Shown here: in pieces, positions 13,308 through 37,528 of the stretch
How positions within the stretch are numbered: position 1 is the stretch's first letter
How the letters are laid out: each line of letters begins with the position of its first letter
Source of the DNA: [Phormidium] sp. LEGE 05292
GTDB lineage: Bacteria; Cyanobacteriota; Cyanobacteriia; Cyanobacteriales; Aerosakkonemataceae
Direction: 5' to 3'
Assembly: GCF_015207735.1 (NCBI RefSeq)
Contig: NZ_JADEWG010000046.1
Coordinates: forward strand, 1 to 44,177
Length of the DNA: 44,177 bases
Program-made: the position numbers and the translations under genes
The notes under the pieces: generated by a model
What the model was told of the DNA's origin: nothing
Databases searched by the model: none
What the model saw: only the letters and a program-made list of their open reading frames with translations

Positions 13308-14297
13308 ATGAAAAAGTATTTGCAACTTAATTCATCTTTGCCTATTATTATTGCCCATCGAGGCGCAAGCGGTTTTCGTCCAGAACATACTTTAGCTTCT
13401 TATAAATTAGCCATTACTTTAGGTGCAGATTATATTGAACCGGATTTAGTTTCCACCAAAGATGGTGTATTAATCGCACGTCACGAAAATGAAATTTCTA
13501 CTACTACTAATGTTGCTGAATATCCCGAATTTGTTAATCGTAAAACTACTAAATTAATCGATGGAAAACCAATTACAGGTTGGTTTACTGAAGACTTTAC
13601 CTTGGCAGAGATTAAAACTCTGAAAGCTAAAGAACGTTTACCTTTTCGAGATCAAAGTTTTAACAATCAATTCTCAATTCCGACTTTTCAAGAGATTATT
13701 GATTTAGTTAAACTTAAAAGTGGGGAAATTGGTCGATCGATCGGAATTTACCCAGAAACTAAACACCCAACTTATTTTGCTTCTATTGGTTTACCTTTAG
13801 AAGAACCATTAATTGAAATTCTTCATAATAATGGATATAGATCTGCTAAAGATCCGATTTATATTCAATCTTTTGAAACAGCCAATTTGCAAAAGCTGAG
13901 AAAATTAACTGATTTACCATTGATTCAATTACTAGAAAATTTCGGGCAACCTTTTGATTTAGTAATGAAAGGCGATTCGCGAACCTACAAAGACTTAACA
14001 ACACCCCAAGAATTAGCTAAAATCGCTGAATACGCTGCTGGAATCGGCCCCAATAAACAGATGATTATACCTGTGGATAAAGAGGGAAAATTACTATCTC
14101 CAACATCTTTAATTGCCGATGCTCATACTGTAGGATTACTAGTTCATCCTTACACTTTTCGGAATGAAAAGCAATATTTAGCACCTGATTACAATCAGAA
14201 TCCAGAAGCAGAATATGAGCAATTTTTTAACTTAGGTGTAGATGGAGTATTTACTGATTTTACTAATACTGCATTAATGGTAATTCAGCGAATATGA
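13308..14297 (+). CDS. Glycerophosphodiester phosphodiesterase
   Basis: This 329-residue enzyme would hydrolyse glycerophosphodiesters to glycerol-3-phosphate and an alcohol. The GDPD signature is clear: IIAHRGASGFRPEHTL with His17 and Arg18, then ADYIEPDLVSTKDG with Glu44 and Asp46 (metal ligands) and a conserved RHE with His59. The barrel extends to the end, where GVDGVFTDFTNTAL is typical. No signal peptide is seen, so it is probably cytoplasmic. It forms an apparent operon with the upstream kinase (6 bp gap). Its TGA stop overlaps a REP-like hairpin at 14296-14320. Phospholipid or phosphate recycling is likely. Confidence 0.92.
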   Translation: MKKYLQLNSSLPIIIAHRGASGFRPEHTLASYKLAITLGADYIEPDLVSTKDGVLIARHENEISTTTNVAEYPEFVNRKTTKLIDGKPITGWFTEDFTLAEIKTLKAKERLPFRDQSFNNQFSIPTFQEIIDLVKLKSGEIGRSIGIYPETKHPTYFASIGLPLEEPLIEILHNNGYRSAKDPIYIQSFETANLQKLRKLTDLPLIQLLENFGQPFDLVMKGDSRTYKDLTTPQELAKIAEYAAGIGPNKQMIIPVDKEGKLLSPTSLIADAHTVGLLVHPYTFRNEKQYLAPDYNQNPEAEYEQFFNLGVDGVFTDFTNTALMVIQRI

Positions 14298-14320
14298 ACA
14301 CTGAAGTGTTCACAACAGAC
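14296..14320 (+). repeat. Single REP-like element overlapping the GDPD stop codon
   Basis: GAACAC-TGAA-GTGTTC (14296-14311) is a 6-bp stem with a TGAA tetraloop, followed by ACAACAGAC. It matches one half of the 55-bp units at 36418-37528, with the outermost A-T pair changed to G-C, so pairing is kept. The element begins inside the TGA stop (14295-14297). Confidence 0.75.
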
Positions 14321-17350: not shown

Positions 17351-18922
17351 ATGACTACGATCCAACGACAGTACAGCTTGCCCAATTGCACCCTGATCTT
17401 AGAAGGGTTGAGTGAAACCACAGGCGGTATCATTCAATCAGATATGCGCCCAGTCTTGTCAATTTTAGTCAATGCCGAATGTCGTTTGGCAGGTTATACT
17501 GGGCCTTCATTAAGTGGGGGAAGAGACTTTTTTGAAAGTTTGGTGACAGCAGTTAGCAGCTACGCTCAAGAAATTTTAAGTGGTTTACCCCATCAACATC
17601 AACATTTGGAAAATGGTCATGTACCTTTGGTGCAGTTGCGGCGCAATGGGCAAAATTTACATCGGTTAATTATCCAACCACACAATTTAAATGCTTTCTC
17701 TCATAGTGCGAGTACACCTACAACTCCTACAAATCCCATTGCAATTGATTTATCTACGGTGCAATTGTTTGATTTAGTAGAAGCTGTAGATCAGTTTTTT
17801 GCTGACAGCCAAACTTTGCCTAGTTTAGGGTTGAAGTTAGCGCCAGTGGAAAAACGCTTTGCTAAGTCGGATGAAGATTTGGTGAAACAAGCTGCACCAG
17901 CTGCTTTGGGTTTGTCTAGTTTAGCACTGGCTGCGATCGCACTCTTTTTTGCCCCCATTCCTGAAGTGCAAAGACCCAGAGAACCTTTACCACAAGAGAA
18001 TTCTGGTGTTGTCTCCCCAAATTCTACTATTCCCGGACAATCTACCACCGAACCTCCCTTACCTCCCACAACCACAAATACAACTCCTCAATCTAATTTG
18101 GGCGGACAAACTACCACGCCTGTAACTTCCTCTACCACCGAAGTTCCTGCCAATTCTGCCGCAACACCCTTAGCAACACAAGTTCCACCCACTACTACTT
18201 CTAACTTGGGAACACAAACTCCCCCAGTTGCCACCCCCACACCAGAGGCAGTCCCAACTATACCGCCAAATTCCCCAGTTGCAGTGCAGTCAACTCCTGC
18301 GCCTGTTGCACCAACTGTACCGCCAACAGATTCTACAGTTGCAGTACAACCAACTCCTGCACCTGTCAGTACACCAACACCACCAACAGACTCTACAGTT
18401 GCAGTACAACCAACTCCCGCACCTGAGACATCAACTGCACCTAATTCAGTAGTGCAAACTCCTGTAGCTGTACCTACAATTCCCTCAACTGAGTCAAATG
18501 TAGGCTTGCAAACTCCTGCAACTACTTTACCTACCTCCACCCCTTCTACTTCAGGAACACAAACTCCCTTAATTACAGGAGCAACTTTAGGAAGGAATAA
18601 TGAAATTGTTGATGCAGCTTCACTGAAAATTTTGAATCGTAATCTTTACAGACAACTTCAACAAAGTAGAACAGAAATTACTAAGTTTCCTGAAGAATTA
18701 GTTTATCGGGTTGCTATGCGCCCAGACGGAACAGTAATCAACTATGAACCTCGTAATCAACCTGCACAGGAATATTTAAACCAAACTCCTCTTCCCAACG
18801 TAGGTGTTGCTAATGTTCCCACAGATTCTACTAGCGTAAATCAACAACCAGTTGCATATTTTAAGGTTGTGTTTACTCCTAAAGGTGTGTTGCAAGTTAG
18901 TCCTTGGCGAGGTTATCAGTAA
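17351..18922 (+). CDS. DUF4335 protein with a long Pro/Thr-rich linker
   Basis: This 523-residue protein starts with the DUF4335 domain (about 1-120; TIQRQYSLPNCTLILEGL is characteristic). A hydrophobic helix at about 183-203 (GLSSLALAAIALFFAP) would cross the membrane. Residues about 206-410 are a Pro/Thr/Ser/Val-rich, low-complexity linker containing 19-20-residue repeats such as STVAVQPTPAPV, presumably extracytoplasmic. A small folded-looking C-terminal domain (about 415-523) ends in VLQVSPWRGYQ. The layout suggests a cytoplasmic domain joined through the membrane to a periplasmic domain on a stalk. Function unknown; it follows the DUF3038 gene on the same strand. Confidence 0.85.
   Translation: MTTIQRQYSLPNCTLILEGLSETTGGIIQSDMRPVLSILVNAECRLAGYTGPSLSGGRDFFESLVTAVSSYAQEILSGLPHQHQHLENGHVPLVQLRRNGQNLHRLIIQPHNLNAFSHSASTPTTPTNPIAIDLSTVQLFDLVEAVDQFFADSQTLPSLGLKLAPVEKRFAKSDEDLVKQAAPAALGLSSLALAAIALFFAPIPEVQRPREPLPQENSGVVSPNSTIPGQSTTEPPLPPTTTNTTPQSNLGGQTTTPVTSSTTEVPANSAATPLATQVPPTTTSNLGTQTPPVATPTPEAVPTIPPNSPVAVQSTPAPVAPTVPPTDSTVAVQPTPAPVSTPTPPTDSTVAVQPTPAPETSTAPNSVVQTPVAVPTIPSTESNVGLQTPATTLPTSTPSTSGTQTPLITGATLGRNNEIVDAASLKILNRNLYRQLQQSRTEITKFPEELVYRVAMRPDGTVINYEPRNQPAQEYLNQTPLPNVGVANVPTDSTSVNQQPVAYFKVVFTPKGVLQVSPWRGYQ
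18242..18426 (+). repeat. Tandem 57-60-bp coding repeats in the DUF4335 linker
   Basis: Three units encode versions of PP(T/N)(D/S)S(T/P)VAVQ(P/S)TPAP. The last two share near-identical DNA over about 44 bases with a 60-bp period (around 18323 and 18383); the first (around 18262) is shorter and more diverged. Recent unit duplication is likely. Confidence 0.7.
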
Positions 18923-19016: not shown

Positions 19017-20861
19017 ATGAATATGAACTCCAATTCTCCCATGCCAGGGCATCAGAAAATAGCGCATCATTCCCGGAAATTTTGGGCTAATAAATTCAAC
19101 TTGTGGAAAGATTCTGCCGATCGCCTAAGTATTAGCACTAAAATTAGATGTGGCTATGCTCTGGCTTTGGGGATTGCGGTTTTAGGGACAACTGTAGGTA
19201 TTGGGTTGGGTCATTATTATGAAGAAGCTTTTCGGGAGGAAGCTGAAGAATGGCATGAAGCCGGGTTGCTGCTTAATGATTTACAAATAGCTGTTGGGCA
19301 AGCGCGATCGCACCAACAACAATTCGTCGCTTTACTGGAAAAACCAGAAGATTTTCAAAATCAACATTCCCATTTTATTGAATATATTCTTAATGTTAAA
19401 TTACTACTTCAAAAAACCAAAACTTCTTTAAAAGTTCAACAAATTCCTGCGTCTAACGTTTTTTTTACAACTTATGAACAAGTAGTAGAAAATTATTTTA
19501 CCCAAACAGAAAGTGTTATTAAAAAAATTAATTCAACCAATTTAAAGCCAACAGAAATTTCTCAATTACAGCAGTCACTATTAAATTTAACTATCAGTGA
19601 AACAGCACTAAAATTTGATGATTATTCAATGAAATTAGCCGAGATTGCTAGTCAGGCTTTTCGAGAAGAAACTACAGCAGCAAATAATGTAGAACGAAGT
19701 GAAGAATTACAAATTGGACTCACAATGTCTAGTATGTTGGTATCAGTGATACTAGCAATATTTTTAGCAATTTATACTAGTAGAGCCATCGCACGTCCTT
19801 TAAAAGCAACAACAGAAGTAGCTCAAAAAGTTACTCAAGAAGATAACTTTGACTTACAAGCACCTGTAACTACCAGCGATGAAGTAGGCGTTTTAAGTGT
19901 ATCTTTAAATCAATTGATTAGTCGGGTTAAATATTTATTAGCAGAACAGAAAGCCGCAGCTACTCGACAAGAAGAGTTACAACAAAAACAGTTACTCCAA
20001 AGTGAGAAAATGTCTAGCTTAGGGCGCATGGTTGCTGGCATAGCTCATGAAATTAATAATCCGGTAAACTTTATTTATGGCAACCTTGTCCATGCTAGCG
20101 AATATGTTAGCGACCTTTTGGATATTTTAGCGTCTTACGAACAAGAACTAACTCAACCATCCTTAGCTTTACAAGAAAAAGCTGAAGAAATCGATTTAGA
20201 ATTCTTGGAAGAAGATTTACCAAAAACTTTGCAATCAATGACTGTTGGTGCCGAAAGAATTCGCCAAATTGTGTTGAGTTTAAAAGATTTTTCCCGGTTG
20301 GATGAAGCCGAAGCTCAATTAGTTGATTTACACGCTTGTATTAATAGCACTTTATTAATTTTGCATAACCGCATTAAGAAGGGAATAAAAGTAGTTCTCA
20401 ACTATGGTGATATTCCCAAAGTTTTAGGTTATACAGGTTTTCTTTATCAAGTATTCATGAATTTAATTAGTAATGCGATCGACTCTTTCGAGTCACACTC
20501 CGTGAACGATGCTTTAGCAGAAACTCTTACAACAGAAAACTCTTCAGATAAAGAACTTTTAATTACTACAGAACGCCTAGATAGTAACTGGGTAATGGTG
20601 CGAATTGCTGACAACGGTTGTGGGATTTCTCTGGAAAATCAGTCCAAAATTTTTGATACATTTTTTACTACAAAACCCAGAGGTATTGGCACAGGTTTAG
20701 GGTTAGCAATTACTCGGCAAATTGTGGAAGAAAAACATGGCGGTAAAATTACTTGTACTTCCGAAATTGGTAAAGGTACAGAATTTGCGATCGCACTTCC
20801 CATTGATGCTTCCGCAGGAAAAGTCAACCACGCAACTGCCGAATCAGTTGGTTCGTTGTGA
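19017..20861 (+). CDS. Membrane sensor histidine kinase
   Basis: Two membrane helices (TM1 and TM2, at about residues 46-68 and 235-255 from the chosen start) bracket a largely helical exported sensor region of about 165 residues. A HAMP-like linker, a coiled-coil stretch and the DHp H-box IAHEINNPVNF follow. The HATPase_c domain has NLISNAIDSF (N box), DNGCGIS (G1) and GTGLGLAI (G2), so all kinase motifs are present. ATG 19017 was chosen; ATG 19023 or TTG 18996 are alternatives and no clear ribosome site decides. No response regulator gene is adjacent, so the partner is unknown. The final codons and TGA stop lie within a REP-like element (20851-20914). Confidence 0.9.
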   Translation: MNMNSNSPMPGHQKIAHHSRKFWANKFNLWKDSADRLSISTKIRCGYALALGIAVLGTTVGIGLGHYYEEAFREEAEEWHEAGLLLNDLQIAVGQARSHQQQFVALLEKPEDFQNQHSHFIEYILNVKLLLQKTKTSLKVQQIPASNVFFTTYEQVVENYFTQTESVIKKINSTNLKPTEISQLQQSLLNLTISETALKFDDYSMKLAEIASQAFREETTAANNVERSEELQIGLTMSSMLVSVILAIFLAIYTSRAIARPLKATTEVAQKVTQEDNFDLQAPVTTSDEVGVLSVSLNQLISRVKYLLAEQKAAATRQEELQQKQLLQSEKMSSLGRMVAGIAHEINNPVNFIYGNLVHASEYVSDLLDILASYEQELTQPSLALQEKAEEIDLEFLEEDLPKTLQSMTVGAERIRQIVLSLKDFSRLDEAEAQLVDLHACINSTLLILHNRIKKGIKVVLNYGDIPKVLGYTGFLYQVFMNLISNAIDSFESHSVNDALAETLTTENSSDKELLITTERLDSNWVMVRIADNGCGISLENQSKIFDTFFTTKPRGIGTGLGLAITRQIVEEKHGGKITCTSEIGKGTEFAIALPIDASAGKVNHATAESVGSL

Positions 20862-20914
20862 GGACTTTAGTCCTTTTATTCCAGAAAGAAACGACTAAAG
20901 TCGGCACTACTAAC
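20851..20914. repeat. Paired REP-like element filling a convergent gap
   Basis: Two hairpins face each other: AGGAC-TTTA-GTCCT after GTTCGTTGTG, and CGAC-TAAA-GTCG before GCACTACTAAC. Read backwards, the element at 31242-31304 is nearly the same sequence, including the TATTCCAGAA-type spacer. It supplies the stop codon of the histidine kinase and ends one base before the PBP stop codon. Confidence 0.75.
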
Positions 20915-26006: not shown

Positions 26007-27428
26007 ATGATTTTACGTCTTACTCTCACCAATCCCAAGACTGTAGCTGCTGCCCTTTCTGGAGTAGCTTTGACCATTAGCTTAAGTTCTTGTGGCCCAT
26101 CACAAACCACACCAACAGCCACTCAAACCACTCCTGCTGCTCCCAATGCTAGCCCAGCAGTAGCACCAGGAACACCTACCACCACCACTCCATCCAGACT
26201 CGACCTAACGCAAAACGTCCTACTCTCAGGTGCAGGCGCATCTTTCCCCGCACCCTTGTATCAAAGTTGGTTTGCACAGTTCAATAAAATCAATCCCAAA
26301 GCTAGAATCAACTACCAGTCAGTTGGTAGTGGTGCAGGTGTCCAACAGTTTATTAACAAAACAGTAGACTTTGGCGCTAGCGATGTCGCCATGACCGACG
26401 AAGAACTAGCAAAAGTTCAAGGCGGCGCACTCATGCTACCAGTAACCGCAGGTGGCATCGTCTTAGCTTACAACGCACCCGGAGTAGAAAACTTAAAACT
26501 ATCCCGAAATGTTTTAGCAGACATCTTTTTGGGGAATATCAAGACTTGGAATGACCCCAAAATTGCCGAAGCTAACCCAGGCGTAACCCTACCTAACTCA
26601 CCCATCACAGTAGTTTATCGTGCTGATGGTAGCGGAACCACAGGCATATTCACCAAATATTTGAGCGCCATTAGTCCCACTTGGAAATCGAAAGTCGGTG
26701 ACGGTAAAACAGTATCTTGGCCGACAGGTGTAGGTGCCAAAGGTAACGAAGGTGTGACTGCTCAAATAGCCCAAACAGCAGGCTCCATTGGTTACATTGA
26801 ATACGGTTACGCCAAACAAAATAATCTCAAATTCGCCACTTTAGAAAATAAAGCAGGCAATTACGTTACATACAATGAACAAACAGCTTCTAGTGCTTTA
26901 GACTCAGTACAACTACCAGAAAACTTACGAGCCTTCATTGTTGACCCAGAAGGTACAGACTCTTACCCCATAGTCAGCTATACCTGGTTGCTAGTCTATC
27001 CGAAATATCCAGATGCAGCCAAAGCCAAAACTATGGAAGCAATGGTGGAATATGCTTTGACTGAAGGACAAAAAATTGCTCCTCAGTTAGGTTATATTGC
27101 TCTGCCACCAAAAGTTGCTTCTAAAGTAGCTACCGTTGCTCAGGCAATTAGCCCAGATTACAACATTGCGGTTGCTCCTCCAGCAGGAACTCCAGATACA
27201 ACTGCTGCTAGTCCAGGTGCAACAACTCCGGGTGCAACTACCGTCACTCCGAGTACAGCTAGTCCTGAAGCAGCTACCACCACTCCTGGTGCAACGACTC
27301 CAGATACTACTACCACCACTCCTGGTGCAACGACTCCAGATACTACTACCACCACTCCTGGTGCAACGACTCCAGATACTACTACCACTACTCCTGGTGC
27401 AACTCCCACACCAGCTACTACTCCTTAG
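26007..27428 (+). CDS. pstS: Phosphate-binding lipoprotein PstS
   Basis: This 473-residue protein is the periplasmic receptor of the high-affinity phosphate ABC importer. A signal peptide ends in a lipobox LSSC with Cys29. The binding domain (about 70-375) has GAGASFPAPLYQSW near its start and VVYRADGSGTTGIF, which lines the phosphate site. The protein is long for the family (about 330-380 residues) because of a C-terminal Thr/Pro/Gly-rich tail (about 395-473) built from 12-residue repeats. The N-terminal stretch after Cys29 is also Thr/Pro-rich. It is the first gene of pstSCAB, with a candidate Pho box upstream. Confidence 0.95.
   Translation: MILRLTLTNPKTVAAALSGVALTISLSSCGPSQTTPTATQTTPAAPNASPAVAPGTPTTTTPSRLDLTQNVLLSGAGASFPAPLYQSWFAQFNKINPKARINYQSVGSGAGVQQFINKTVDFGASDVAMTDEELAKVQGGALMLPVTAGGIVLAYNAPGVENLKLSRNVLADIFLGNIKTWNDPKIAEANPGVTLPNSPITVVYRADGSGTTGIFTKYLSAISPTWKSKVGDGKTVSWPTGVGAKGNEGVTAQIAQTAGSIGYIEYGYAKQNNLKFATLENKAGNYVTYNEQTASSALDSVQLPENLRAFIVDPEGTDSYPIVSYTWLLVYPKYPDAAKAKTMEAMVEYALTEGQKIAPQLGYIALPPKVASKVATVAQAISPDYNIAVAPPAGTPDTTAASPGATTPGATTVTPSTASPEAATTTPGATTPDTTTTTPGATTPDTTTTTPGATTPDTTTTTPGATPTPATTP
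27276..27398 (+). repeat. 36-bp tandem coding repeat in the pstS 3' end
   Basis: Three almost exact 36-bp units (27276-27311, 27312-27347, 27348-27383) and a partial fourth encode TTTPGATTPDTT. Near-identical DNA points to recent copy-number change. It stays in frame because 36 is a multiple of 3. Confidence 0.85.
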
Positions 27429-31241: not shown

Positions 31242-31304
31242 GTTTGTTGTAGCGACTTTAGTCGTAAATTCTGGAATCAAAGGACTAAAGTCCTCACAAC
31301 GAAC
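31242..31304. repeat. Paired REP-like element 3' of psb27
   Basis: CGAC-TTTA-GTCG follows GTTTGTTGTAG, and GGAC-TAAA-GTCC precedes TCACAACGAAC. The reverse complement aligns along its whole length with the element at 20851-20914, including the central ATTCCAGAAT-like spacer, so these are two copies of one 63-64-bp unit in opposite orientation. Confidence 0.75.
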
Positions 31305-35132: not shown

Positions 35133-36419
35133 ATGAATAAGCGGTCATGGTTGGTATTTGTTATATTAGCGATCGCAGTACTCATTAGAGTGATTCCTCT
35201 TAGTTTAGCAAATCCTCAAGAAACAGCAACAACTGTGAACTCATCTCCTGAACCTTCACCTTCATTAGTAATTGCTGGCGGTAATCTCCGTTACGATAAT
35301 GCCGAAGTTTTCCAGAAAATCATTGAATTAGCTGGGGGAAAAGGCGCTAAAATTGCCGTTTTACCAACAGCTAGCGGTAATCCCATTAACAGCGGCAAAT
35401 ATTCAGTAGAAGCATTTAAAAAATATGGTGCTGAACCAATTTTCATCCCCGTTGCTGTGGAAAATATCGATGTAGATTACCGAAAAGCTGTACAAGATTC
35501 CGCTTTAATTAAAGAATTAGAAGAGTGTGAAGGAGTTTACTTTACTGGCGGTTCCCAAGAAAGAATAACTCAGGCACTTTATACTGAAACAGGGGAAAAA
35601 ACCCCGCTATTAGATGCTATTTGGAAACTTTATAAAAAAGGCGGTGTAATTGCTGGAACTAGTGCAGGTGCAGCAATTATGAGTGATACCATGTTTCGCG
35701 ACGCAAACAATGTATTAAGCGTTTTAAAATATGGTGTAACCGAAGGTAAAGAAATAGATAAAGGACTAGGTTTTATTGGCAACGATATTTTCATCGATCA
35801 GCATTTCTTCATTCGCGGAAGATTTGCCCGTTCCTTAGTAGTCATGAAAAAGAAAGGCTACAATTTAGGAATAGGTGTAGATGAAAATACTGCTTTAGTA
35901 GTGAAGAATAACATTGCTGAAGTCATCGGATACAAAGGCGCTTTAGTCATGGATTTATCTGCCGCCACTACTAACCCAAGTATTAAAGAGTTTAATATCA
36001 AAAATGTCAAATTAACATATTTGGATCGGGGTGACAAATTTAATTTGCAAACTAAAGAAGTGATTGTCCATCCGCTAAAATTAGCGGGAACCAAAGTAGA
36101 ACCGAACAATCCCATTTATCAACCTCATTTTAATCATCAGAAATTGTATCCCGATATCTTGGCAAATACAGTTGTAGTAGATTTGATGTTTAACTTTGTT
36201 GACAACGAGCAACAAGAAGTAATTGGGTTAGCATTTACCAATATTTCCGAAGATGAAAAACCCGAATTAGGTTTTGAATTTAAGTTTAGAAAGGGAACGG
36301 ATACTTTAGGATATTTTACCAGTGCTTTTGGCAGTGAAGATTACACTGTTATGAATATTTATTTGGATGTAACGCCGATTCGGATGACAGATAAATTGTA
36401 TGAGTATATTTCAAGTTAA
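35133..36419 (+). CDS. Exported cyanophycinase-like S51 peptidase
   Basis: This 428-residue protein starts with a signal or anchor helix (about 5-25). A cyanophycinase domain follows (about 45-310): VIAGGNLRYDNAEVF, FTGGSQERITQAL, the nucleophile elbow IAGTSAGAAIMS with Ser177, and FIDQHFFIRGRFARSL. Cyanophycinase cleaves the Asp-Arg storage polymer to beta-Asp-Arg. The usual enzyme is cytoplasmic and about 270 residues; this one is exported and carries an extra C-terminal domain (about 315-428). It may act outside the cell on polymer released by lysed neighbours. Its TAA stop overlaps the first REP unit. Confidence 0.85.
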   Translation: MNKRSWLVFVILAIAVLIRVIPLSLANPQETATTVNSSPEPSPSLVIAGGNLRYDNAEVFQKIIELAGGKGAKIAVLPTASGNPINSGKYSVEAFKKYGAEPIFIPVAVENIDVDYRKAVQDSALIKELEECEGVYFTGGSQERITQALYTETGEKTPLLDAIWKLYKKGGVIAGTSAGAAIMSDTMFRDANNVLSVLKYGVTEGKEIDKGLGFIGNDIFIDQHFFIRGRFARSLVVMKKKGYNLGIGVDENTALVVKNNIAEVIGYKGALVMDLSAATTNPSIKEFNIKNVKLTYLDRGDKFNLQTKEVIVHPLKLAGTKVEPNNPIYQPHFNHQKLYPDILANTVVVDLMFNFVDNEQQEVIGLAFTNISEDEKPELGFEFKFRKGTDTLGYFTSAFGSEDYTVMNIYLDVTPIRMTDKLYEYISS

Positions 36420-36634
36420 ACACTGAAGTGTTTACAACAGACAGGTTCGTTGTGAGCGCTTTAGCGCTAGTTAAACACTGAAGTGTTTACAACGGACAGG
36501 TTTGTTGTCGGCGCTTTAGCGCTAGTGAAACACTGAAGTGTTTACAACGGACAGGTTTGTTGTGAGCGCTTTAGCGCTAGTGAAACACTGAAGTGTTTAC
36601 AACGGACAGGTTTGTTGTCGGCGCTTCAGCGCTA
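36418..36634 (+). repeat. Left REP array, four 55-bp units
   Basis: Units start at 36418, 36473, 36528 and 36583 (the last is cut to 52 bp). Each has AAACACTGAAGTGTTT, then ACAAC(A/G)GACAGGTT, then (C/T)GTTGT, then a hairpin AGCGC-TTTA-GCGCT. The two hairpins are inverted copies of the same motif plan: tetraloop TRAA plus the ACAAC flank. Units two and four have CGGCGC, giving a G-T pair in the stem, and unit four has a TTCA loop. The array starts inside the cyanophycinase stop codon and ends 8 bp from the transposase stop. Confidence 0.92.
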
Positions 36635-36642
36635 CTTGCTAC

Positions 36643-37236
36643 TTACTTATCCCAGTCAATTCCGTAATCTCTTACTGGATATTCAACCCAAGCATCACGC
36701 AACCACTGTCTTCCATATTCTTGAAAATACCAGTGAACGCTACTATGAACCCAATTGTAAGGAGAATTTGCCCAATTATGTTTGACTGGGTTGTAATGAA
36801 TATAATTAAGAGTTGTATAATAATGTCTTTCGGAACGAATAGCGCGATCGTTCCATTTACACCATATTTTTCGCCCAGTTATATTTTCTTCCAAATTCCA
36901 TTTTCGAGATGTTGCACCATGAATTTGGCGAAATAATTCACTTAATATATCAAAATTTATTAAATGCACTAAAAGATGATAGTGATTAGGTAAAATAACC
37001 CAAGCTAAAATCTCTATATCATTAGTTATAAACTTTTCAAATATTAGATCTAGTAGTTGCTGACGGCGAGATTCAGAATTTAAATGACACTTATGTTCAT
37101 AACAAGCTGATGTTAATAAATAAAGAGATCTATTCCGTACTTGATGCGGTGGGGAGTGAGGTGGAAAACCACGTTTTAAGCGATGCTCAACTAATTCAGC
37201 TTTTTGTTTTGGAGTTAATTTACGATATTCGTACAT
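36643..37236 (-). CDS. REP-associated tyrosine transposase (RAYT)
   Basis: This intact 197-residue Y1 HUH nuclease of the IS200/IS605-related RAYT group has the HUH motif LPNHYHLLVH (His85, His87) and the catalytic-Tyr region LNYIHYNPVKH, with Tyr145 as nucleophile; YIHxNPVKH is the hallmark of RAYTs. In known systems RAYTs nick and join single-stranded REP hairpins and are domesticated single-copy genes. Here it is enclosed by two arrays of a 55-bp palindromic unit, so the arrays are the likely substrate. There is no frameshift and all key residues are present, so it may be active. Its upstream region contains the right array's first hairpin about 27 bp away. Confidence 0.93.
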   Translation of the reverse strand: MYEYRKLTPKQKAELVEHRLKRGFPPHSPPHQVRNRSLYLLTSACYEHKCHLNSESRRQQLLDLIFEKFITNDIEILAWVILPNHYHLLVHLINFDILSELFRQIHGATSRKWNLEENITGRKIWCKWNDRAIRSERHYYTTLNYIHYNPVKHNWANSPYNWVHSSVHWYFQEYGRQWLRDAWVEYPVRDYGIDWDK

Positions 37237-37255
37237 ATTGTGAGTTTGTTTTTTA

Positions 37256-37528
37256 GTTTGTTGTGAGCGCTTTAGCGCTAGTGAAACACTGAAGTGTTTA
37301 CAACGGACAGGTTTGTTGTGAGCGCTTTAGCGCTAGTGAAACACTGAAGTGTTTACAACGGACAGGTTTGTTGTGAGCGCTTTAGCGCTAGTGAAACACT
37401 AAAGTGTTTACAACGGACAGGTTTGTTGTGAGCGCTTTAGCGCTAGGGAAACACTGAAGTGTTTACAACGGACAGGTTTGTTGTCGGCGCTTTAGCGCTA
37501 GTGAAACACTGAAGTGTTTACAACGGAC
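37256..37528 (+). repeat. Right REP array, four full and two partial 55-bp units
   Basis: A partial unit (37256-37283) with the AGCGC hairpin is followed by full units at 37284, 37339, 37394 and 37449 and a half unit (37504-37528) with the AAACAC hairpin. The unit at 37394 has a TAAA loop in the first hairpin. The unit at 37449 has CGGCGC. Orientation is the same as in the left array, so transposase plus margins interrupt one continuous tandem series. Confidence 0.92.

Follow-up and report, generated by a model that had tools for sequence, protein, structure and literature searches.

The cyanobacterium [Phormidium] sp. LEGE 05292 (NCBI RefSeq assembly GCF_015207735.1, 7.5 Mb in 351 contigs) carries a single-copy REP-associated tyrosine transposase (RAYT) together with a repeat family of its own, in which the tag at the foot of each repeat has probably changed from GTAG to GTTG along with a change of residue 126 of the enzyme to Cys. 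The gene lies on contig NZ_JADEWG010000046.1 (C264), whose entire length of 44,177 bases is the window analyzed here, between two arrays of repetitive extragenic palindromes (REPs). All 18 REPs that flank it are tagged GTTG, and among 100 distinct related RAYTs, all nine whose flanking repeats are mostly of this type have Cys at position 126.

The RAYT gene and its flanking REP pairs

The 197-amino-acid open reading frame (ORF) at 36643..37236 on the minus strand is a RAYT, a known kind of enzyme. It matches NCBIfam NF047646 (REP-associated tyrosine transposase) with 87.2 bits (cut-off 80) and Pfam Y1_Tnp with 27.7 bits (cut-off 23). Alignment and a codon check place NHYH at residues 84-87, with the HYH form of the HUH motif at codons 85-87 (36976..36984, minus strand), and the catalytic tyrosine at Tyr145 (36802..36804, minus strand); the codons for H85, H87 and Tyr145 are intact. 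The ORF, both profile matches and these codons bear out the initial annotation, which had described an intact Y1 HUH protein between repeat arrays. In an AlphaFold2 model built with 51 sequences, the mean predicted local distance difference test score (pLDDT) is 87.9, and the closest structure in the PDB is 4er8, E. coli TnpAREP with a REP hairpin (Z 16.5 over 159 residues). The ratio of nonsynonymous to synonymous substitutions (dN/dS) against the two nearest relatives is 0.185 and 0.146, at high dS (0.84 and 1.07), and in ten further RAYT pairs it is 0.05-0.33. Since dN/dS is low in all these pairs, purifying selection appears to act on the proteins.

Both arrays consist of a 55-bp unit, and all units share one orientation. 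Tandem Repeats Finder (TRF) reports 4.0 copies with 93% matches on the 3′ side of the gene (36414..36634, plus strand) and 5.0 copies with 97% matches on its 5′ side (37256..37528, plus strand). The near-identical units on both sides had been seen correctly, though the start of the feature, given earlier as 36418, moves to 36414. On the plus strand, each unit reads GTTTGTTGT, one base, AGCGCTTTAGCGCT; on the minus strand, it reads GTCCGTTGT followed by AAACACTTCAGTGTTT. The first REP is thus a GTTGT tag followed by the AGCGCTTTAGCGCT hairpin (for example, 37315..37334, plus strand), present in nine copies with tags starting at 36449, 36504, 36559, 36614, 37260, 37315, 37370, 37425 and 37480. 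The second is a GTTGT tag followed by the AAACACTTCAGTGTTT hairpin on the minus strand (for example, 37338..37359), also in nine copies. With up to two mismatches, hairpin sequence 1 (AGCGCTTTAGCGCTA) occurs nine times against a mean of 0.07 in shuffled sequence; with up to three mismatches, hairpin sequence 2 (GAAACACTGAAGTGTTTACAAC) occurs ten times in the window, nine of them within the arrays, against 0.00 in shuffles. Both tags of the unit read GTYYGTTGT and face outward, and the hairpin top is CTTYAG. The unit is therefore an inverted REP pair in the layout of a bacterial interspersed mosaic element (BIME) or REP doublet forming hairpins (REPIN). The two inverted hairpins described earlier are present, but the unit proves to be two REPs, both of which carry the tag. 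Tandem BIMEs occur in E. coli as well.

One could also regard the gene as a mobile element of the IS200/IS605 type with the repeats as its ends. Such elements share the HUH/Y1 fold (ISHp608 transposase is the second-ranked PDB match of our model, at Z 10.3, and chains of IS608 and ISDra2 rank behind 4er8, at Z 9.3-10.3), and hairpins do lie on both sides of the gene. We nevertheless consider this highly improbable and rejected it, as a genome-wide search retrieved a single RAYT match, the one on C264, and the NCBIfam family is RAYT. Moreover, when 388 genomes were searched at E 1e-35 or better, 57 of the 61 positive for this RAYT clade had one copy and the other four had two, of different tag type (the two matches in G091 were taken as one gene in pieces), and in the source genome the repeats vastly outnumber the gene. 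A known structured RNA was likewise rejected as a candidate, since no Rfam match at the gathering score was obtained in the window.

The repeat family and the origin of the arrays

The pattern GTYYGTTGT-N5-CTTYAG has 369 matches in the source genome (182 and 187 on the two strands) and none in the control. It has five in the single genome of the same genus that was searched; across 195 genomes, it was found in 27, and the 25 besides these two hold at most two matches each. Dispersed members also lie elsewhere in the window: a single pair at 31246..31300 with two GTTGT tags and other stems (CGACTTTAGTCG; AGGACTTTAGTCCT), a pair at 20855..20910 with one GTTGT and one GTAGT tag, and a lone GTTGT-tagged REP with the stem GAACACTTCAGTGTTC at 14295..14316 on the minus strand. 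Sixty-seven distinct REPs of the source genome were collected, partly by similarity to the window unit and hence non-randomly; they have 24 distinct 5′ stem pentamers. On average 3.9 of 5 stem positions pair, compared with 2.1 when the halves are shuffled (maximum of 200 shuffles, 2.4); the collecting pattern fixed the tag and the hairpin top, so the constancy of these two lies outside this test. The stems vary yet stay paired. A RAYT with a hairpin repeat family is a REPtron, a known kind of system.

Tandem arrays are also present on other contigs of the source genome (C78, C37 and C285, with five units each, and C186, C79 and C241). On contig C67 (L219:14904-15152), nine single REPs of 28 bp with a GTAGT tag stand head to tail beside an opposite-strand GTTG-tagged REP, in a genome otherwise dominated by GTTG.

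We think that the 55-bp arrays most likely arose when a REP pair was duplicated locally in tandem, through slippage or unequal recombination; nicking by the RAYT may have set this off. Such duplication suffices to account for the arrays. That the RAYT itself drives the arrays by catalyzing the tandem multiplication of the REP pairs beside it, as in the still amplifying system suggested by the initial annotation, seems unlikely to us, although 18 REPs lie within 700 nt of the gene in the window, second only to the 21 of L111 among 100 loci (median 5), and arrays flank RAYTs in several relatives. The contigs listed above hold arrays, including the nine 28-bp units of C67, while the only RAYT found is on C264, and variants are common to the units within one array, as expected of slippage or recombination. 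Nor can the array around the gene be called unusual, as had been proposed: besides L111 and the arrays on other contigs, tandem REP pairs have been described in cyanobacteria (PMC3733652).

Residue 126 and the third base of the tag

Codon 126 of the window RAYT (36859..36861, minus strand) is TGT, for Cys. In a hidden Markov model (HMM) alignment to 4er8, IWCKWNDRAIR of the window protein stands opposite IWQPRFWEHAIR of E. coli, with one gap column; by this alignment, and with the numbering of the published work, Cys126 is the equivalent of Q95 of E. coli TnpAREP. Q95 is named among the residues that contact GTAG in E. coli (PMC8266576), and the equivalent of position 126 is a named GTAG-contact residue in two papers (PMC8266576, PMC6006769).

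REPs were scored at each RAYT locus out to 700 nt from the gene, a REP being GTNGT with a hairpin of 5 bp or more; in shuffled flanks, this rule gave 0.03-0.05 hits per locus and tag base. Loci with at least two flanking REPs were considered tagged and were called GTTG if T exceeded A at the third base and GTAG otherwise. Removal of 15 duplicates from 111 translations left 96 proteins, and 94 remained once L145 (many stops) and L154 (partial) were taken out; L051 and L156 contain internal stops, which were entered as X. Thirty-two later loci added six new proteins and 26 repeats of known ones, which gives the 100 distinct RAYTs; the split gene L075 is outside the set. By majority, 94 of them were tagged: nine Cys loci with GTTG and three with GTAG, and 66 Tyr, nine His and seven Phe loci, all with GTAG. 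One of the Phe calls, L141 (one A, and two G in GTGGTGG runs), is weak. The remaining six loci (two Cys, four Tyr) had too few REPs.

Counted REP by REP, the third base at Cys loci is T in 67 cases, A in 21 and C in 3; at Tyr loci, A in 384, C in 3, G in 1 and T in 1; at His loci, A in 65, C in 2 and G in 1; and at Phe loci, A in 28 and G in 2. A stricter hairpin rule, under which nine loci lack a tag, gives 61 T, 21 A and 3 C for Cys, 369 A and 3 C for Tyr, 65 A, 2 C and 1 G for His, and 28 A for Phe. All 61 GTTG REPs passing this rule are at Cys loci and none at the others, where 462 are tagged GTAG; the 91 tagged loci comprise Cys with GTTG (9) or GTAG (3), and GTAG with Tyr (64), His (9) or Phe (6). 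A Fisher test of Cys against the GTTG tag gives 2e-10, relatedness ignored. When the well-filled alignment columns of the first 94 proteins are compared, column 126 shares the most information with the tag (mutual information 0.30 of 0.40 bits; the next has 0.20).

The idea of a residue-tag pairing arose from 27 proteins. The 80 named loci had been fetched earlier and were scored only afterwards; for the second RAYT copy of genome G032, the tag was known at that point and the residue was not. The six new proteins found later all fit: four have Tyr with GTAG only, and two have Cys with a GTTG majority (7 T and 3 A in one; 4 T in the other, two of which pass the stricter rule).

On a maximum likelihood tree (quick search, column 126 removed), the tag state changes six times and Cys seven times. 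The window RAYT is the sole Cys row in a group of 26, the other 25 being of the Tyr/GTAG type (support 84, not starred). Residue 126 is Tyr in the Plectonema, Hassallia and Rhizonema PD37 relatives, and the Iningainema copy has stops in the frame read. Genome-wide, GTTG-type matches in these four stand at 22, 21, 35 and 42 against control counts of 17, 19, 47 and 33, respectively, and GTAG-type matches at 198, 377, 189 and 126 against 25, 40, 40 and 26. Because the nearest relatives are Tyr/GTAG, the GTTG switch of the window lineage looks independent by its place among these sequences. When Cys was simulated on the tree independently of the tag, it fell on all nine GTTG tips in 11 of 20000 runs, and a Pagel-type test of Cys and tag gave a likelihood ratio (LR) of 29.3 (p 7e-6).

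All four genomes with two RAYTs of the clade are split, one copy being Cys with a GTTG majority and the other Tyr or His with GTAG. In G032, the Cys copy has 7 T and the His copy 8 A; in G126, where the protein is the same as that of Planktothrix rubescens LR882958, the Cys copy has 7 T and the Tyr copy 7 A; in G208, the counts are 7 T and 3 A for Cys and 21 A for Tyr; and in G238, they are 4 T for Cys and 4 A for Tyr. Genome-wide, G208 holds 2552 GTAG-type REPs (control 20) and 366 of the GTTG type (control 35). In the His copy of G032 (L156), the codon of the catalytic tyrosine is a TAG stop, and eight GTAG REPs still flank the gene.

In the survey of 195 genomes, a RAYT of the clade was present in 30 (E below 1e-39). 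At least 100 GTTG-type REPs were counted in ten genomes, six of which have a Cys RAYT, compared with two of the 185 others (Fisher 8e-8, relatedness ignored). This survey and the residue-tag pairing tie repeat type to RAYT type, in support of the initial annotation, which had read GTTGT as a parallel of the GTAG tag and the RAYT as the partner of cognate REPs. The case that it had named as refuting, many copies of the unit but never such a RAYT, exists in part: G008, for example, has 800 GTAG-type REPs (control 38) and no RAYT of the clade. Repeat and RAYT thus go together as a correlation and not as an obligatory link. Of 35 genomes with at least 100 GTAG-type REPs, 19 have such a RAYT and 16 have none; therefore, REPs persist without it or are served by other RAYTs. 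Matches to the GTAG-type CTTYAG pattern number 304 to 1072 in seven genomes without a RAYT of the clade (G008, G104, G121, G150, G127, G167 and G179), and G104 has a distant Y1 match.

Several results weigh against a tight coupling of residue and tag. Cys is insufficient for GTTG, as L064, L101 and L108 have Cys with mostly or only GTAG repeats: L064 has 3 T and 7 A, and L101 and L108 have GTAG only near the gene, while in their genomes as a whole GTTG stays at the level of the control (28/34 and 35/45). L071 was counted as GTTG though it has three GTTG and three GTCG REPs, and L139 and L207 rest on two good GTTG REPs each. In G023, there are 672 GTTG-type REPs, yet its RAYT has His and is flanked by GTAG/GTCG; no second RAYT match was obtained there at E 1e-3. 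G125, of the same genus as the source, has 123 GTTG-type REPs, and its RAYT has Phe; two further GTTG-rich genomes, G074 and G189, lack a RAYT of the clade. Strongly supported independent pairs are few (three starred, six in all), too few for an independent-pairs sign test to be significant. No DNA-bound structure of a Cys RAYT is known to us. In E. coli, the final two bases of the tag are contacted by G160 and E161, C-terminal residues that group 3 enzymes lack (PMC8266576); because of this, Q95 need not read base 3.

The sampled repeats of G023 have mostly TGTGC/TGCGC stems.

These observations leave room for an ordinary REPtron whose tag has drifted, with GTTG and Cys co-inherited or merely fellow travellers and the tag read by other residues, such as those of the C-terminal tail. 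The Cys RAYTs L101 and L108 with GTAG repeats, the GTTG-rich genomes G023, G125, G074 and G189 without a Cys RAYT, the small number of strongly supported independent switches and the E. coli contacts of G160 and E161 would all agree with it. We still judge drift to be rather unlikely: the window switch sits among 25 Tyr/GTAG-type rows, the simulation and the LR test speak against chance association, the two-copy genomes are split without exception, the out-of-sample proteins all fit, and position 126 corresponds to a named contact residue. The results are read most simply if Cys is necessary for GTTG and allows this tag but does not enforce it, and if old repeats survive after their enzyme is gone.

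Relation to known systems and interpretation

Subclass 2.8 RAYTs (Quentin et al. 2018) share NHYH, YIHYNP, a length of about 199 amino acids and a proline-rich N-terminus with the window protein; their flanking REPs have long perfect stems, as here, and the subclass was cyanobacterial in that sample (PMC6006769). The W[YH] motif of the subclass, however, is Trp125-Cys126 in the window protein, and the subclass REPs are reported to be tagged GT[AG]G rather than GTTG (PMC6006769). Because 18 of 18 flanking REPs are GTTG, we file the window protein only as a RAYT nested among 2.8-like proteins. E. coli TnpAREP (PDB 4er8) resembles it in fold, in flanking inverted REP pairs and in a 5′ tag at the hairpin foot; it differs in having a GTAG tag, bulged stems and Q95 in place of GTTG and Cys126, and the proline-rich N-terminal part of the window RAYT is mostly beyond the range aligned to it. 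The group 3 REPtrons that Corneloup et al. 2021 described from S. maltophilia and Marinomonas resemble the window system in their perfect hairpins with required loop bases, and the Marinomonas loop TTNA resembles TTYA of the window REPs, but their tags are GTAG (PMC8266576). Cyanobacterial families GTAG-12, -15 and -16 are also tagged stem-loops that occur dispersed, paired and in tandem, with complementary stem variation; the tag degeneracies given in the accessible text are GYAG, GYRG, GTRG, GTMG and GTGG, and GTTG is not among them (PMC3733652). A canonical REP has GTAG or GTGG at the hairpin foot, and the window repeat, with GTTG, is REP-like by position and structure. In the open-licence literature on RAYTs and REPINs, as far as its text was available, we found no description of natural GTTG tags or of residue 126/Q95 as a tag switch.

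By analogy with TnpAREP of E. coli and S. maltophilia, the window RAYT would bind one REP strand as a folded hairpin, read the 5′ tag together with portions of the hairpin, and cut nearby via Tyr145, which would help REP pairs to spread; cutting by this enzyme and the mobility of its REPs are thus presumed from its characterized relatives. The S. maltophilia enzyme binds a GTTG substrate, but the change from GTAG to GTTG abolishes cleavage, according to PMC8266576. From the comparison of loci, we infer that residue 126 helps to read the third tag base, presumably by contact with it. The Cys and Tyr codons (TGT/TAT) are one base apart. A broader proposition, which we advance tentatively as possible rather than probable, is that tolerance at the third tag base is set by residue 126 (Cys versus Tyr, His or Phe). 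The residue would have flipped on several occasions, one of them in the lineage of the window, and would allow a genome to hold two independent REPtrons whose tags differ.

The paired Cys/T change suggests how RAYTs may choose their repeats. A natural GTTG family with one substitution at a tag-contact residue offers a direct test case for RAYT-REP co-evolution and for what fixes the widespread GTAG tag, and it would help to explain how two repeat populations persist in one genome without mixing. Surveys limited to GT[AG]G would miss repeat families of the GTTG type. Should the tag direct cleavage in the way suggested for Marinomonas, repeats of the GTTG type are expected to be cut at CA and not at CT; CT and CA dinucleotides around 433 GTAG and 53 GTTG REPs showed no clear difference indicative of a shift in cleavage site.

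The neighbors of the RAYT gene are a cyanophycinase gene (35133-36419) on one side and a DUF1995 gene on the other. An insertion boundary could not be read: the DUF1995 product of G125 is 89% identical, and cyanophycinase is absent from its 3.8 kb stretch, as it is from the stretches of eight further genomes (2.0-3.7 kb) examined for an empty site. The end of the cyanophycinase gene, with its TAA stop codon, overlaps the first repeat unit (36414-36425); the repeat may therefore have reshaped the C-terminus of the protein.

RAYTs of the clade with GTAG REPs were also encountered in metagenome-assembled genome (MAG) records assigned to Chloroflexi/Anaerolineae, Oscillochloris, Caldilineaceae, Poribacteria, Parabeggiatoa, Aquidulcis, Terriglobia and Kiritimatiellota (loci L105, L134, L135, L140, L143, L144, L146-L153 and L155). 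Elsewhere in the window, tandem repeats of 60 bp (18254-18436) and 36 bp (27189-27403) lie within ORFs 17351-18922 and 26007-27428, the latter presumably PstS-like, as judged by eye only, and code for Pro/Thr-rich stretches.

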